DNA of 64,000 nucleotides from Winogradskyella sp. J14-2 (GTDB lineage: Bacteria > Bacteroidota > Bacteroidia > Flavobacteriales > Flavobacteriaceae): assembly GCF_001971725.1 (NCBI RefSeq), contig NZ_CP019388.1:1240001-1304000 (forward strand), given 5' to 3'. The notes below the pieces were generated by a model. It saw only the letters and a list, made by a program, of their open reading frames with translations. It was not told the DNA's origin and made no database searches. The position numbers and the translations under genes were made by a program. Every line of letters begins with the position of its first letter. Within the stretch, counting starts at the first letter, position 1. Positions 33,824 to 42,859 of this stretch are shown here, one piece after another.

Positions 33824-34606
33824 TTATAAACTTTTTGTTCTACCACCATCAACCGGAAGGTTAATGCCGTTAATGTAACTCGCTTTTTCACTTGCTAAAA
33901 AGGTGATAGCTGCAGCTAATTCTTCTGGTTTTGCAAAACGTTTTGCTGGAACAGCGCTTTTCATGGCGTTAGCAGCTTCGTCTTCTGTTTTGCCTGTTTT
34001 AGCACTTTTGTTTTTAATAATTTCGGTTAGACGTTCTGTACCAGTTGCACCTGGTAAAACATTATTTACGGTAATGCCATACTGTCCAAGCTCGTTAGCT
34101 AAGGTTTTACTCCAGTTAGCTACTGCACCACGAATGGTATTACTTACACCAAGTCCATCTAATGGCTGTTTTACAGATGTTGAAATCACATTAATTATAC
34201 GTCCATATTCTTCAGCTTTCATAAACGGAACAACAGCTTGAGCTAATACATGATTACATTTTAAATGTTGTGTGAAAGCGCTTTCAAATTCTTCAATTTT
34301 TGCATTAAAAACTGGTCCACCAGCTGGTCCGCCAGTGTTGTTTACCAACACATGAAATCCGTGATTGTTTTTAATATAGCTTTCAACTTTTTCTTTTAAT
34401 TCCATTGGATTAGAAAAATCAGCTACAATATAATCGTGATTTCTGTGTTTTGGCAGTTCAGCTAAAACTGCCTTTAGCTTGTCTTCGTTTCTTGCAACTA
34501 GTGTGATATTTGCACCTTCTTCGGCTAACGCTAAAGCAGTTGCTTTACCAATACCTGCTGTGCTACCACAAACCAGTGCGTATTTGTTGTTTAAGTTTAG
34601 ATTCAT
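33824..34606 (-). CDS. SDR-like protein without the YxxxK catalytic pair
   Basis: A 260-residue Rossmann protein: GSTAGIGKATALALAEEGANITLVARN (14-40), LVNNTGGPAGG, INVISTSVKQ (Ser142/144) and NNVLPGATGTERL. At the usual YxxxK position the sequence is VSNTIRGAVANWSKTLA, giving Ser155 and Arg159 instead of Tyr and Lys. This matches the ketoacyl-reductase-like SDR subgroup known to lack the canonical tetrad. Placed within the kynurenine cluster; the reaction is unknown and it may not be a classical dehydrogenase. Confidence 0.85.
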   Translation of the reverse strand: MNLNLNNKYALVCGSTAGIGKATALALAEEGANITLVARNEDKLKAVLAELPKHRNHDYIVADFSNPMELKEKVESYIKNNHGFHVLVNNTGGPAGGPVFNAKIEEFESAFTQHLKCNHVLAQAVVPFMKAEEYGRIINVISTSVKQPLDGLGVSNTIRGAVANWSKTLANELGQYGITVNNVLPGATGTERLTEIIKNKSAKTGKTEDEAANAMKSAVPAKRFAKPEELAAAITFLASEKASYINGINLPVDGGRTKSL

Positions 34607-34610
34607 AATT

Positions 34611-34637
34611 CTGTCTGGTCGAGCGCAGTCGAGACCT
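34611..34637 (+). repeat. REP-like palindromic element, left arm next to the GIY-YIG gene
   Basis: Core tcgagcgcagtcgaga (34619-34634) within ctgtctgg...cct. It is the exact reverse complement of the core at 34966-34981 on the other side of the GIY-YIG gene. It ends 2 nt before that gene's stop codon. Confidence 0.8.
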
Positions 34638-34639
34638 AC

Positions 34640-34957
34640 TTAACTGTTCAGTTTATAATTAGAATGTGTTGCATTTCTACATTCGGCTAAAATCTGCAAC
34701 AAATTATACTCTCCATTAGCTAAAGCAAATTTCTTTTTTGCACTCCATTTTTTTATTTTCTTTTCAAAATATATTGCTTGTTCTGCATTGTTAAACTCTT
34801 GTTGAAATATTAATTCTAAAGGCCTTCTGTTATATGTAAAACATGTTTTATTTAATCCGTTTTGGTGTTCTTCAAATCTCCTAGATATGTTATTTGTTAT
34901 TCCTGTATAAGTTAACCCATCTGAACATTTCAATATGTAAACATAATACGTTTTCAT
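34640..34957 (-). CDS. Small GIY-YIG nuclease family protein
   Basis: A 105-residue stand-alone GIY-YIG domain of the UrvC/Slx1-like UPF0213 type. It has YYVYILKCSDGLTYTGIT (4-21, the GIY...YIG elements as VYI and YTG), the catalytic Arg R27 (ISRRFEEH), and the metal-binding Glu E65 (YFEKKIKKWS). These proteins are predicted endonucleases, mostly uncharacterised. The gene interrupts the kynurenine cluster and is tightly bracketed by a perfect inverted pair of REP-like elements 2 nt past its stop and 8 nt before its start. Confidence 0.9.
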   Translation of the reverse strand: MKTYYVYILKCSDGLTYTGITNNISRRFEEHQNGLNKTCFTYNRRPLELIFQQEFNNAEQAIYFEKKIKKWSAKKKFALANGEYNLLQILAECRNATHSNYKLNS

Positions 34958-34963
34958 AATTAA

Positions 34964-34987
34964 CCTCTCGACTGCGCTCGAGGCGAC
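34964..34987 (-). repeat. REP-like palindromic element, right arm next to the GIY-YIG gene
   Basis: Core tctcgactgcgctcga (34966-34981), flanked by cc and ggcgaca. It is a 16/16 inverted match to the element at 34619-34634 and lies 8 nt upstream of the GIY-YIG ATG. Confidence 0.8.
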
Positions 34988-34993
34988 ATCAAA

Positions 34994-36436
34994 TTAATAC
35001 TTTACACACACATTTTTAGCCTCAGTAAAAAAGCGTAAAGCTTCAAATCCACCTTCGCGACCAACGCCACTTGCTTTTACGCCACCAAAAGGTGTACGTA
35101 AATCGCGCATCATCCAAGTGTTTACCCAAACAATTCCTGCTTGTAGTTGGTTGCTCATTCGCATCGTTCGTTTTAGGTTATTTGTCCAAAGCGTTGCTGA
35201 TAATCCGTATTTTACTTTGTTAGCCATCTCTAAAACGTCGTTTTCAGTTTTAAATGGCATAATGGTAACGACTGGACCAAAAATTTCTTCTTGATTCACG
35301 CGACATTCATCTGTATTTACCTCAACAACCGTTGGTTGTAAATAGTAACCGTTTTCGTAACCTTCAACAGTAACTTCATTACCGCCACATAAAAGAGTTG
35401 CACCTTCTTCTTTTGCAATTTCGATATAGCTTTTCACCTTTTCAAGATGCGGTTTTGAAACTAAAGCACCAATATTAGTATCTTTTTCAGAAGGATGACC
35501 AACTTTTAAGGCATTTACTTTTTTCACAAAGTCTGTTTTGAATTTCCCATAAATCGCTTCCTCTACAAAAATTCGGCTTCCGCATAAACAAATCTGACCT
35601 TGATTGGCAAACGACGAGCGTACCGTTGTGTTCAACATATCGTCATAATCGCAATCAGCAAAAATGATGTTTGGGTTTTTTCCACCTAATTCTAAAGACA
35701 ATTTTTTAAACATTGGTGCTGCAACTTTGGCAATATGTGCGCCAGTTGCTGTTCCGCCAGTAAAACTAATGGCTTTAATACTTGGATGCTCTACTATAGC
35801 TTGACCTGTCGTAGTGCCTAAACCGTGAACAATATTTAAAACGCCTTTAGGTAAACCTGCTTCGTTGCAAATTTCGCCTAACAAATACGCTGTCATTGGT
35901 GTGACTTCGCTTGGTTTGGCTACGACGCAATTACCTGCTGCGATTGCCGGTGCGATTTTCCAAGTGAATAGATACAAAGGTAAATTCCAAGGACTAATGC
36001 AGCCTACAACACCAATAGGTTGGCGTAATGTATAATTTACAGCGTTTTGACCAACGCTTTCGTGACTTTCGCTTGCAAATTGGGTAATGGCATTTCCGAA
36101 AAACCTGAAATTACTTGCTGCTCTTGGTATATCAACCATTTTGGCGAGACTTATGGGTTTTCCGTTGTCCTTACTTTCGGCTTCAGCAAAACGGTCTAAA
36201 TTGGCTTCTAATAATTCTGAAATCTTAATTAGAATTCTGCTACGCTCTTCTAATGTAGTTTGACTCCAACTAGGAAAAGCAGATTTAGCACTTTGATAAG
36301 CTTGTTCTACGTCGTCTTTTGAAGAGTTTGGAATTTGTCCATAGACTTCACCATTTGAAGGGTTGTAGTTGTCAATCCACCCATTAGCAATGGGAAGCAA
36401 GAAATCTCCGTTTATGTAGTTTTTGATTCTAGACAT
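34994..36436 (-). CDS. Aldehyde dehydrogenase, probable 2-aminomuconate semialdehyde dehydrogenase
   Basis: A 480-residue NAD-dependent aldehyde dehydrogenase. Catalytic C283 (NQGQICLCG), general-base E249 (LSLELGGKNP), N151 (ISPWNLPL) and the FTGGTATG cofactor loop are all present. Closest by pattern to the 2-hydroxymuconic / 2-aminomuconic semialdehyde group (AMSDH). With ACMSD and 3-hydroxyanthranilate dioxygenase nearby it should make 2-aminomuconate. Its ATG overlaps the stop of the upstream cyclase-like gene (TAATG). Confidence 0.9.
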   Translation of the reverse strand: MSRIKNYINGDFLLPIANGWIDNYNPSNGEVYGQIPNSSKDDVEQAYQSAKSAFPSWSQTTLEERSRILIKISELLEANLDRFAEAESKDNGKPISLAKMVDIPRAASNFRFFGNAITQFASESHESVGQNAVNYTLRQPIGVVGCISPWNLPLYLFTWKIAPAIAAGNCVVAKPSEVTPMTAYLLGEICNEAGLPKGVLNIVHGLGTTTGQAIVEHPSIKAISFTGGTATGAHIAKVAAPMFKKLSLELGGKNPNIIFADCDYDDMLNTTVRSSFANQGQICLCGSRIFVEEAIYGKFKTDFVKKVNALKVGHPSEKDTNIGALVSKPHLEKVKSYIEIAKEEGATLLCGGNEVTVEGYENGYYLQPTVVEVNTDECRVNQEEIFGPVVTIMPFKTENDVLEMANKVKYGLSATLWTNNLKRTMRMSNQLQAGIVWVNTWMMRDLRTPFGGVKASGVGREGGFEALRFFTEAKNVCVKY

Positions 36437-37191
36437 TAAATTATATCACCTAAAAAATTAACAAATTTAATTGTGTTATCAATTTTTGATTTTACTGAAG
36501 GATTATTGGTTTCCTTATTATCCATTTTAAATACATCGATAATATTATCAACAGAAACAACAAATTCGTCAGAATCTATTGTTTCTCTAGACGTTAGCTT
36601 TAGTACATATTCATCAGAATTACTTGTTGTATGTTTATATGGTACTTTATATTCAATTGCGAATTTTTTTAAAAAATCTAATAATTCAATATCATTAAAA
36701 CTTCTTATTTTTTCAATTATGGAATTGTCTATAACGGTACCTGCCCAGTTTTGACTTTCAGCTTTAATATGAGAATTTACTATTCCTTTGCCATAAATAG
36801 TATTAGCATTATAATAACCACCTGTCTTCGTTTTCATCTTGCCGTCCAAAATATATATTTCATCATATATAATTGCCCCTCTGATTGGAAAATTCCAATT
36901 GTTTTGAGACCAGTTAAATTCATAGCAAACTTCCAATAATTCTTTGAAAGATTCAATGGAATCGTCCTTAGTCCAAAACAATACTGTGTCGGATATATTT
37001 ACAGTTATTAATGGTGATTCACTTACATCATTTATAATCTGTCCCGCTCTATGATAATATTTTCCTTTAGCTAATGCAGACTCTATGTCTCTTTGTATAT
37101 GACCAACTCTAATGTGATGATGTTCACTATCATTATTCATAATAAACTCTTTGTACCCTAAATAATCAAAATAAGCAATGAACTTTTTCAT
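36436..37191 (-). CDS. Nucleotidyl-cyclase-fold-like protein of unknown function
   Basis: A 251-residue protein beginning MKKFIAYFDYLGYKEFI, then VNISDTVLFWTKDD and NFPIRGAIIYDE. This order resembles the class III cyclase / GGDEF-like palm fold: a first-strand Asp (D9), a second Asp after a hairpin (D68) and a following basic-Gly strand (R104, G105). The DNA is visibly more AT-rich than the dehydrogenase and ridA beside it. It is coupled to the dehydrogenase by TAATG and lies 8 nt after ridA. It has no recognised role in kynurenine breakdown. Fold call is inference. Confidence 0.55.
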   Translation of the reverse strand: MKKFIAYFDYLGYKEFIMNNDSEHHHIRVGHIQRDIESALAKGKYYHRAGQIINDVSESPLITVNISDTVLFWTKDDSIESFKELLEVCYEFNWSQNNWNFPIRGAIIYDEIYILDGKMKTKTGGYYNANTIYGKGIVNSHIKAESQNWAGTVIDNSIIEKIRSFNDIELLDFLKKFAIEYKVPYKHTTSNSDEYVLKLTSRETIDSDEFVVSVDNIIDVFKMDNKETNNPSVKSKIDNTIKFVNFLGDII

Positions 37192-37610: not shown

Positions 37611-37630
37611 AATGATCGTCTCTCTGAATT

Positions 37631-37653
37631 GTCACACTGAGCCTGTCGAAGTG
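37631..37653. repeat. REP-like element, variant type
   Basis: gtcacactgagcctgtcgaa followed by gtg, a relative of the tcgagcgcagtcgaga family seen at 34.6, 37.7, 39.2 and 42.8 kb. It lies just upstream of ridA. Confidence 0.55.
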
Positions 37654-37720
37654 TTGATTCAGAATTTATTTTTATAATTATTGGGTCATAATGAGCCAAT
37701 AGAGCTGTCTTTTGGATAGA

Positions 37721-37784
37721 CTTCTCGACTACGCTCGAAGTGACAGTTTATACTTTTTTTTGAGATTCCTGCTTTCGCAGGAAT
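37721..37784. repeat. REP-like element plus a second short palindrome
   Basis: cttctcgactacgctcgaag (37721-37740) with tgaca is a copy of the REP-like family. It is followed by the perfect 8-bp palindrome attcctgctttcgcaggaat (37765-37784), which touches the kmo stop. No T-run follows on the kmo strand, so it is not a typical terminator. Confidence 0.6.
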
Positions 37785-42762: not shown

Positions 42763-42774
42763 TAGATAATATTC

Positions 42775-42849
42775 TGTCATTTCGAGCGTAGTCGAGAAAT
42801 CTTGAAACTATTAAGTCATATAGACATCTCGACTGCGCTCGATGTGACA
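42775..42849. repeat. Inverted pair of REP-like elements
   Basis: tgtcatttcgagcgtagtcg (from 42775) continuing agaaatct faces atctcgactgcgctcgatgt (42826-42845) continuing gaca, about 20 bp apart, between convergent genes. The pair can fold into one long imperfect hairpin with tgtca/tgaca ends. Confidence 0.75.
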
Positions 42850-42859
42850 ATGGAAAAAA

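Follow-up and report, generated by a model that had tools for sequence, protein, structure and literature searches.

The analysed stretch of Winogradskyella sp. J14-2 DNA, 64,000 nucleotides in all and hereafter called the window, carries an SDR oxidoreductase gene (33824..34606, minus strand) and an aldehyde dehydrogenase (ALDH) gene (34994..36436, minus strand) whose best NCBIfam match, 2-hydroxymuconic semialdehyde dehydrogenase, scored below the model cut-off. The gap between them is filled by a 377-bp cassette (34612..34988, minus strand) that runs from TGTC tag to TGTC tag, leaves 5 nt to each flanking gene, and consists of a REP hairpin, a GIY-YIG gene and an inverted REP hairpin. The gene (34640..34957, minus strand) codes for a single-domain GIY-YIG nuclease of 105 amino acids, matching PF01541 at 64.3 bits against a cut-off of 22.6. 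In a 19-row alignment, columns Y7, Y17, G19, R27 and E65 were invariant and H31 nearly so; these six are presumably the catalytic positions of the nuclease. The nearest solved relatives by sequence were the UPF0213 proteins 1zg2 (E 1.1e-17) and 1ywl, and with its domain above the cut-off and its core residues conserved the protein falls among the UPF0213-like GIY-YIG nucleases.

The hairpin on the 3' side of the gene (34612..34636, plus strand) is composed of the tag TGTC, T, the stem GGTC, GA, the loop GCGCAG, TCGA and the stem GACC, and that on the 5' side (34964..34988, minus strand) of the tag TGTC, G, the stem CCTC, GA, the loop GCGCAG, TCGA and the stem GAGG. They include the 16-mer TCGAGCGCAGTCGAGA (34619-34634, plus strand) and its exact reverse complement (34966-34981), respectively. 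A previous sequence-only reading had described a 16/16 inverted pair around a 105-codon GIY-YIG gene in a unit of about 377 bp, in agreement with the element delimited here; its distance of 8 nt from repeat to start codon was also right, and its 2 nt past the stop codon is corrected to 5 nt. The ends share the core GAGCGCAGTCGA and have unlike outer stems (GGTC/GACC vs CCTC/GAGG); they are separate hairpins, and no single long inverted repeat is present. In its general grammar the repeat has the TGTC tag and a single base, after which a first stem arm of 4 bp and GA lead to the loop; TC, a GA bulge and the second arm follow.

With up to three mismatches the 16-mer occurred at seven sites in the window (100 shuffles: mean 0.08, maximum 1), among them the copies at 37.7, 39.2 and 42.8 kb that had been pointed out before. 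A lone repeat (37629..37655, approximate bounds, plus strand), whose loop is the 5-nt GCCTG and whose stem is CACT/AGTG, lies near a lone REP of the window type with the loop GCGTAG and the stem CTTC/GAAG (37722..37746, approximate bounds, minus strand). Two gene-less inverted REP pairs, neither assigned a strand, follow: one degenerate in this genome (39212..39272, approximate bounds) and one with the stems TTTC/GAAA and CATC/GATG (42774..42850).

The identification of the surrounding genes as a kynurenine cluster was confirmed for kynureninase and 3-hydroxyanthranilate dioxygenase, both of which scored above their NCBIfam cut-offs. The names KMO, ACMSD and RidA are our assumption from reading the sequences; the KMO frame fell short of the cut-off of the related oxygenase model that it matched, and the ACMSD and RidA frames had no model match at E 1e-30. 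Between ALDH and RidA (36436-37191) lies a 251-aa ORF with no Pfam match. In the sister genome G026 this gap is occupied instead by a second GIY-YIG gene (L200:1188-1505), framed by perfect ATTCCTGCG-type inverted repeats.

Hairpin repeats beside GIY-YIG genes

Repeats of the above grammar were scored at 130 related GIY-YIG genes, a set from which duplicates, proteins shorter than 75 or longer than 135 aa and matches without a start codon had been removed and which lacks one gene of the window's own genome (L034). Homologues were represented by the best 80 of 528 confirmed loci, and the sample consequently leans to the window's clade. TGTC-tagged hairpins were found on both sides of 77 genes, on one side of 44 and on neither side of nine. 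Among 301 random genes the corresponding numbers were 1, 8 and 292, these controls, like those of the score and phylum tests below, being taken from Winogradskyella regions in which some ORFs may be spurious; random genes with free flanks had repeats on both sides in 1 of 102 cases, and other genes of the same named loci (n = 153) in three, with 13 one-sided and 137 without. The grammar had been derived from the genus loci before the flanks of the named genomes were read, core sites having by then been counted in all loci, and it gave 34 two-sided, 16 one-sided and six bare genes among the 56 of the genus and 43, 28 and three among the 74 from named genomes. Grouped by neighbouring genes, the 130 collapsed to 39 contexts, 21 of them two-sided, 15 one-sided and three without repeats. 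A motif-free measure, an inverted-repeat score of at least 12 between 150-bp flanks, was reached by 35 of 54 genus genes and 3 of 260 control ORFs. Enrichment at the flanks had been set beforehand as a test of the sequence-only reading, which passed it by both measures. That common intergenic hairpins frame a small gene by chance might be imagined from the number of repeats, 35 in this genome, but the excess of two-sided repeats (77/130 vs 1/301) refutes such an origin of the pairing and leaves it a negligible probability.

At E 1e-20 a relative of the nuclease was present in 34 of 68 genomes of the genus. A phylum-wide draw yielded UPF0213-like GIY genes in 75 of 198 genomes; 28 were scored from the 29 best loci (L318 gave none), and inverted repeats with a score of at least 12 flanked 11 of them, compared with 5 of 316 control ORFs, the other 17 falling under 12. 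The best of these phylum-wide flanking repeats resembled TGTCATTCCCGCGAAGGCGGGAATCCA, which is the CGTC REP form as published, CCA tail included, and those beside three of the loci (L312, L313 and L322) fit the published stem, loop and tail by eye.

The window's own genome (one contig, 3.35 Mb) contains 21 exact and 14 one-mismatch copies of the repeat and no copy of a control pattern, the repeat read backwards. Eight GIY-YIG matches were found there, two of them of the window's clade and both framed by the repeat. All five small GIY-YIG genes have flanking inverted repeats, belonging to four families with scores of 12 to 26; the three outside the window's clade account for three other families (scores 12, 26 and 14). 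Homology between the two paralogues of the window's clade starts at the 5'-side TGTC tag and stops within the gene, short of the repeat on the other side. GIY-YIG domains also occur in longer frames: one (L032, G000:C1:1414301-1414519) opens a 431-aa open frame, the remainder of which we take to be GHMP kinase-like from its sequence, and matches lie within 444- and 432-aa frames in G021 and G037.

Conservation of the hairpin was evident from covariation. Among 283 distinct sites selected by tag and core only, 254 were paired at all four stem positions, with the reservation that 30 of the sampled loci had been fetched by a pattern fixing two of the four stem pairs; after 1000 shuffles of the arms the mean was 38.8 and the maximum 56. 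Single-stranded DNA folding of six repeats was mostly no better than that of shuffled sequences (z -2.37 to 0.77), and for this reason folding energy was dropped as a signal and the evidence for a hairpin is taken from covariation.

Across marine flavobacteria, repeat type followed the nuclease phylogeny. On a tree of 130 proteins it required 16 changes, or nine when rows without a repeat were left out; shuffled labels required 64.2 on average, and none of 200 shuffles was as low as 16. The window's clade (63 rows) had 58 TC-6 repeats (NNTC stem, 6-nt loop), one TC-long and four without; a clade of 29 rows with NNCT stems had 26 CT-6 and three other; a long-loop clade of 25 rows had 22 TC-long, one other-long and two without; and a clade of four rows with 5-nt loops had CT-5 in all four. 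The fine structure of the tree is unsure, given few alignment columns, many open forks and support of 81-84 for the three large clades. Genomes with several nuclease clades hold the repeat types apart, as does G062 with three. On these sequence comparisons the pairing of nuclease and repeat is firm.

The same pattern bears on whether the repeats are moved by another enzyme, for example a RAYT (Y1 transposase), with the GIY-YIG gene as a passenger. GTAG-class REPs have been tied to RAYTs (PMC3733652), and flanking structures are reported for some Bacteroidota Y1 subclasses (PMC6006769). If the gene were a passenger, however, one and the same enzyme would have been caught in every clade, each time with that clade's own repeat type, and a search of this genome for Y1 gave a single weak match, over 100 kb away from all of the repeats listed. 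Movement of this kind is strongly disfavoured and was judged very improbable.

Occurrence of cassettes, gene-less repeats and arrays

The cassette was found at the ALDH-SDR junction in 9 of 65 genomes of the genus, with repeats on both sides in all nine. The sequence-only reading had named as its refuter a gene present at this site in all relatives, even those lacking the repeats, and this was not observed. Among the 56 junctions without the cassette, one (G064) has a lone repeat and 55 have none of this grammar. Their gaps measure at most 170 bp in 26 cases and more than 330 bp in 28, of which 26 contain an ORF of at least 60 aa; in these longer gaps, at the variable interval corresponding to 34607-34993 of the window, the ORFs are of several unlike kinds.

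This distribution can be compared with that expected if the nuclease acted in the manner of a homing endonuclease, cutting empty repeats into which the cassette would then be copied by homologous repair between repeats. GIY-YIG is a fold of homing nucleases, window-type genes shift position within one repeat-bearing cluster, and the lone repeat in G064 sits at the very same junction. Insertion of a homing gene, though, ordinarily abolishes its target site, while the cassette has intact repeats at both ends, if these are the site, and 55 of the 56 gene-free junctions are without a repeat of this grammar. Homing was considered unlikely.

Other cassettes were similarly sporadic. The second copy in the window's own genome was found in G000 only among 14 genomes, and a CT-5 cassette in G002 only among nine. 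The latter appears to displace the start of the next gene, which we take from its sequence to be phosphodiesterase-like, and to give it a new start that reads through the repeat (L300, compared with L301 of G000). Behind ahcY, G010 and G064 have cassettes and G002 a decayed one, and G022, G046 and G062 have repeats with no gene listed; 14 of 20 ahcY loci were listed in the first comparison, and at three of the remaining six long-loop repeats follow ahcY.

Gene-bearing and gene-less units were also found joined in tandem. An array in G064 consists of two 441-bp gene-bearing units followed by 173-bp gene-less units, all with one common spacer, and a similar array is present in G002; the spacings are 441, 441, 173, 173 and 441, 444, 181, 181. 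The loci with tandem arrays of this kind, gene-bearing and gene-less units having a repeated spacer in common, are L139 and L142.

The presence of gene-less repeats near the window varies among close relatives. The REP at 37722..37746 is missing from the corresponding gap in G034, where the gap is 6 bp, and in G044, and the pair at 42774..42850 is missing from the gap in the other five genomes compared; an empty-site comparison at this position yielded no boundary, the spacers being non-homologous. The 39.2-kb pair is intact in G034, where its two end types are those of the cassette. The earlier suggestion that the short gaps are gene-less copies fits this pair and the spacer-sharing arrays and does not fit other inverted pairs of this genome, which have other stems; the general statement that every gene-less pair is a cassette minus its gene was dropped, as stems differ in several pairs.

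Window-type repeats averaged 9.5 in 13 genomes with the gene and 3.0 in 55 without, the two sets having been chosen from the genus-wide search for relatives. Copy number was dropped as a clade-specific signal, both cross-comparisons being raised too (p 0.011 and 0.0037). In 13 genomes at least five window-type repeats occurred with no gene from the set in use; among these, G048 does have a distant member. A clear target-site duplication was also dropped: of two sites checked, one gave 13 of 15 bp (p ~0.03) and the other nothing (p 0.85).

A kynurenine-cluster location was shared by 28 of the 130 GIY-YIG genes, in Winogradskyella and ten other named genera. With respect to the pathway genes they fall into five positions: ALDH-SDR (15 genes), RidA-ALDH (8), KMO-RidA (3), before RidA (1) and KMO-HAO (1). 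Some of the gaps may contain further genes, and the sample leans to the window's clade. That clade accounts for 27 of the 28 (27 of its 63 rows), and the remaining gene (L200, from a Winogradskyella MAG) is one of the ATTCCTGCG-framed family; two different cassettes flank the same ALDH gene in G026. All 28 are co-directional with the pathway genes, which in five positions speaks for long residence with local moves, or for selection on co-expression, over free wandering. Judged from these placements, the location of the cassette may not be incidental.

A candidate mobile element

Based upon these comparisons, positions 34612-34988 are probably a minimal mobile element, in which a GIY-YIG nuclease gene lies between inverted copies of the hairpin that its product would recognize, the nuclease being the putative partner of a TGTC/CGTC-type REP. 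The framed pairing, the clade-specific repeats, the presence or absence of whole cassettes and the mixed arrays support this likely reading and, with it, the earlier interpretation of the GIY-YIG protein as a candidate mobilizing partner of the repeat. Mobilization would, we infer, proceed by cutting. The nuclease would recognize the hairpin where the DNA is single-stranded, as on the template of the lagging strand, and would cut near the TGTC tag; the segment, cut or released, could then be copied to another site by host repair or replication, in many cases close by or beside a repeat already present. Gene-less inverted pairs would be non-autonomous derivatives of the cassette. Several observations stand against a mobile element: the repeats persist in genomes without the gene, the copies in the kynurenine cluster are always co-directional, and no clean target duplication was found. 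The co-directionality of 28 of 28 genes is as compatible with long residence or selection as with free mobility.

A cognate pair that does not transpose would account for part of the same evidence. The nuclease might cut repeats in incoming or replicating single-stranded DNA, as in control of DNA uptake, with the repeats spreading by recombination and the flanking copies serving regulation or co-inheritance. Clade-specific pairing requires recognition only, the uniform orientation in the kynurenine cluster suggests selection for expression, and the Neisseria GIY-YIG nuclease Ssn reportedly cuts its repeat and affects transformation. Inverted framing, mixed arrays and the presence or absence of entire cassettes are, on the other side, the traces of a mobile unit, and pairing without transposition was held to be quite unlikely.

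Relation to known repeat systems

TGTC/CGTC-tagged REPs were reported in 2013 to have no dedicated transposase (Di Nocera et al., PMC3733652). The repeats described here resemble the CGTC-tagged ones in having a CGTC or TGTC tag at one end, beside a palindrome, and in frequently forming dimers. They differ in form: the published CGTC REPs have a stem of 8-9 bp starting with AT, a loop of 4-5 nt and a CCA tail (PMC3733652), and in the window type, which does not conform to this, the stem is of 4+2 bp with GA bulged out and the loop is 6 nt long. RAYT/REP and REPIN systems (REPtrons) offer a closer parallel in organization, with a single-domain enzyme gene flanked by its own, cognate hairpin type and with inverted pairs that are non-autonomous. 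Their enzyme, however, is a Y1 HUH tyrosine transposase and their tag GTAG, in place of which a GIY-YIG nuclease and TGTC are found here. The term GIY does not occur in the main text of a paper on HUH enzymes (PMC6006769).

The tandem arrays recall the BIMEs of enterobacteria, which consist of tandem REP-pair units with a shared spacer, and differ from them in combining units with and without a nuclease gene in one array. Ssn, of Neisseria, reportedly belongs to a family of single-strand GIY-YIG nucleases with a cognate repeat, NTS, that is dRS3-like; the study, said to have appeared in Nature Communications in 2025, reportedly found that the nuclease cuts its repeat and has a role in transformation. 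By this account the two systems have in common a single-domain GIY-YIG protein and its own dispersed, GTC-tagged palindromic repeat, and the present one is distinguished by cassettes framed with inverted repeats, gene-less derivatives and arrays. No paper joining GIY-YIG proteins with REPs was found in the literature searched, a collection that does not include the Ssn study, which is no proof of absence. Should this account of Ssn hold, pairs of this kind are already known, and the novelty here lies in the framed cassette, its gene-less derivatives and arrays, the clade-wise code of stem and loop and the residence in the kynurenine cluster.

GIY-YIG families could be the autonomous partners of TGTC/CGTC-tagged REPs more generally, working in a RAYT/REP-like manner with an unrelated enzyme. 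Tentatively, and with somewhat less than even confidence, we propose that GIY-YIG nucleases may be dedicated mobilizers of the whole TGTC/CGTC REP superfamily and define a class of transposase-less elements that would move by cutting of single-strand hairpins, with gene-less pairs as non-autonomous members and with stem and loop as a specificity code. Matched to its repeat clade by clade, the nuclease is a candidate enzyme for REPs without a known partner, and the question of that partner becomes directly testable. The self-contained unit of 377 bp would, if mobile, rank as a mobile element of very small size, and the naturally occurring nuclease-hairpin pairs may provide a ready series in which to study how DNA hairpins are read by a very small enzyme.
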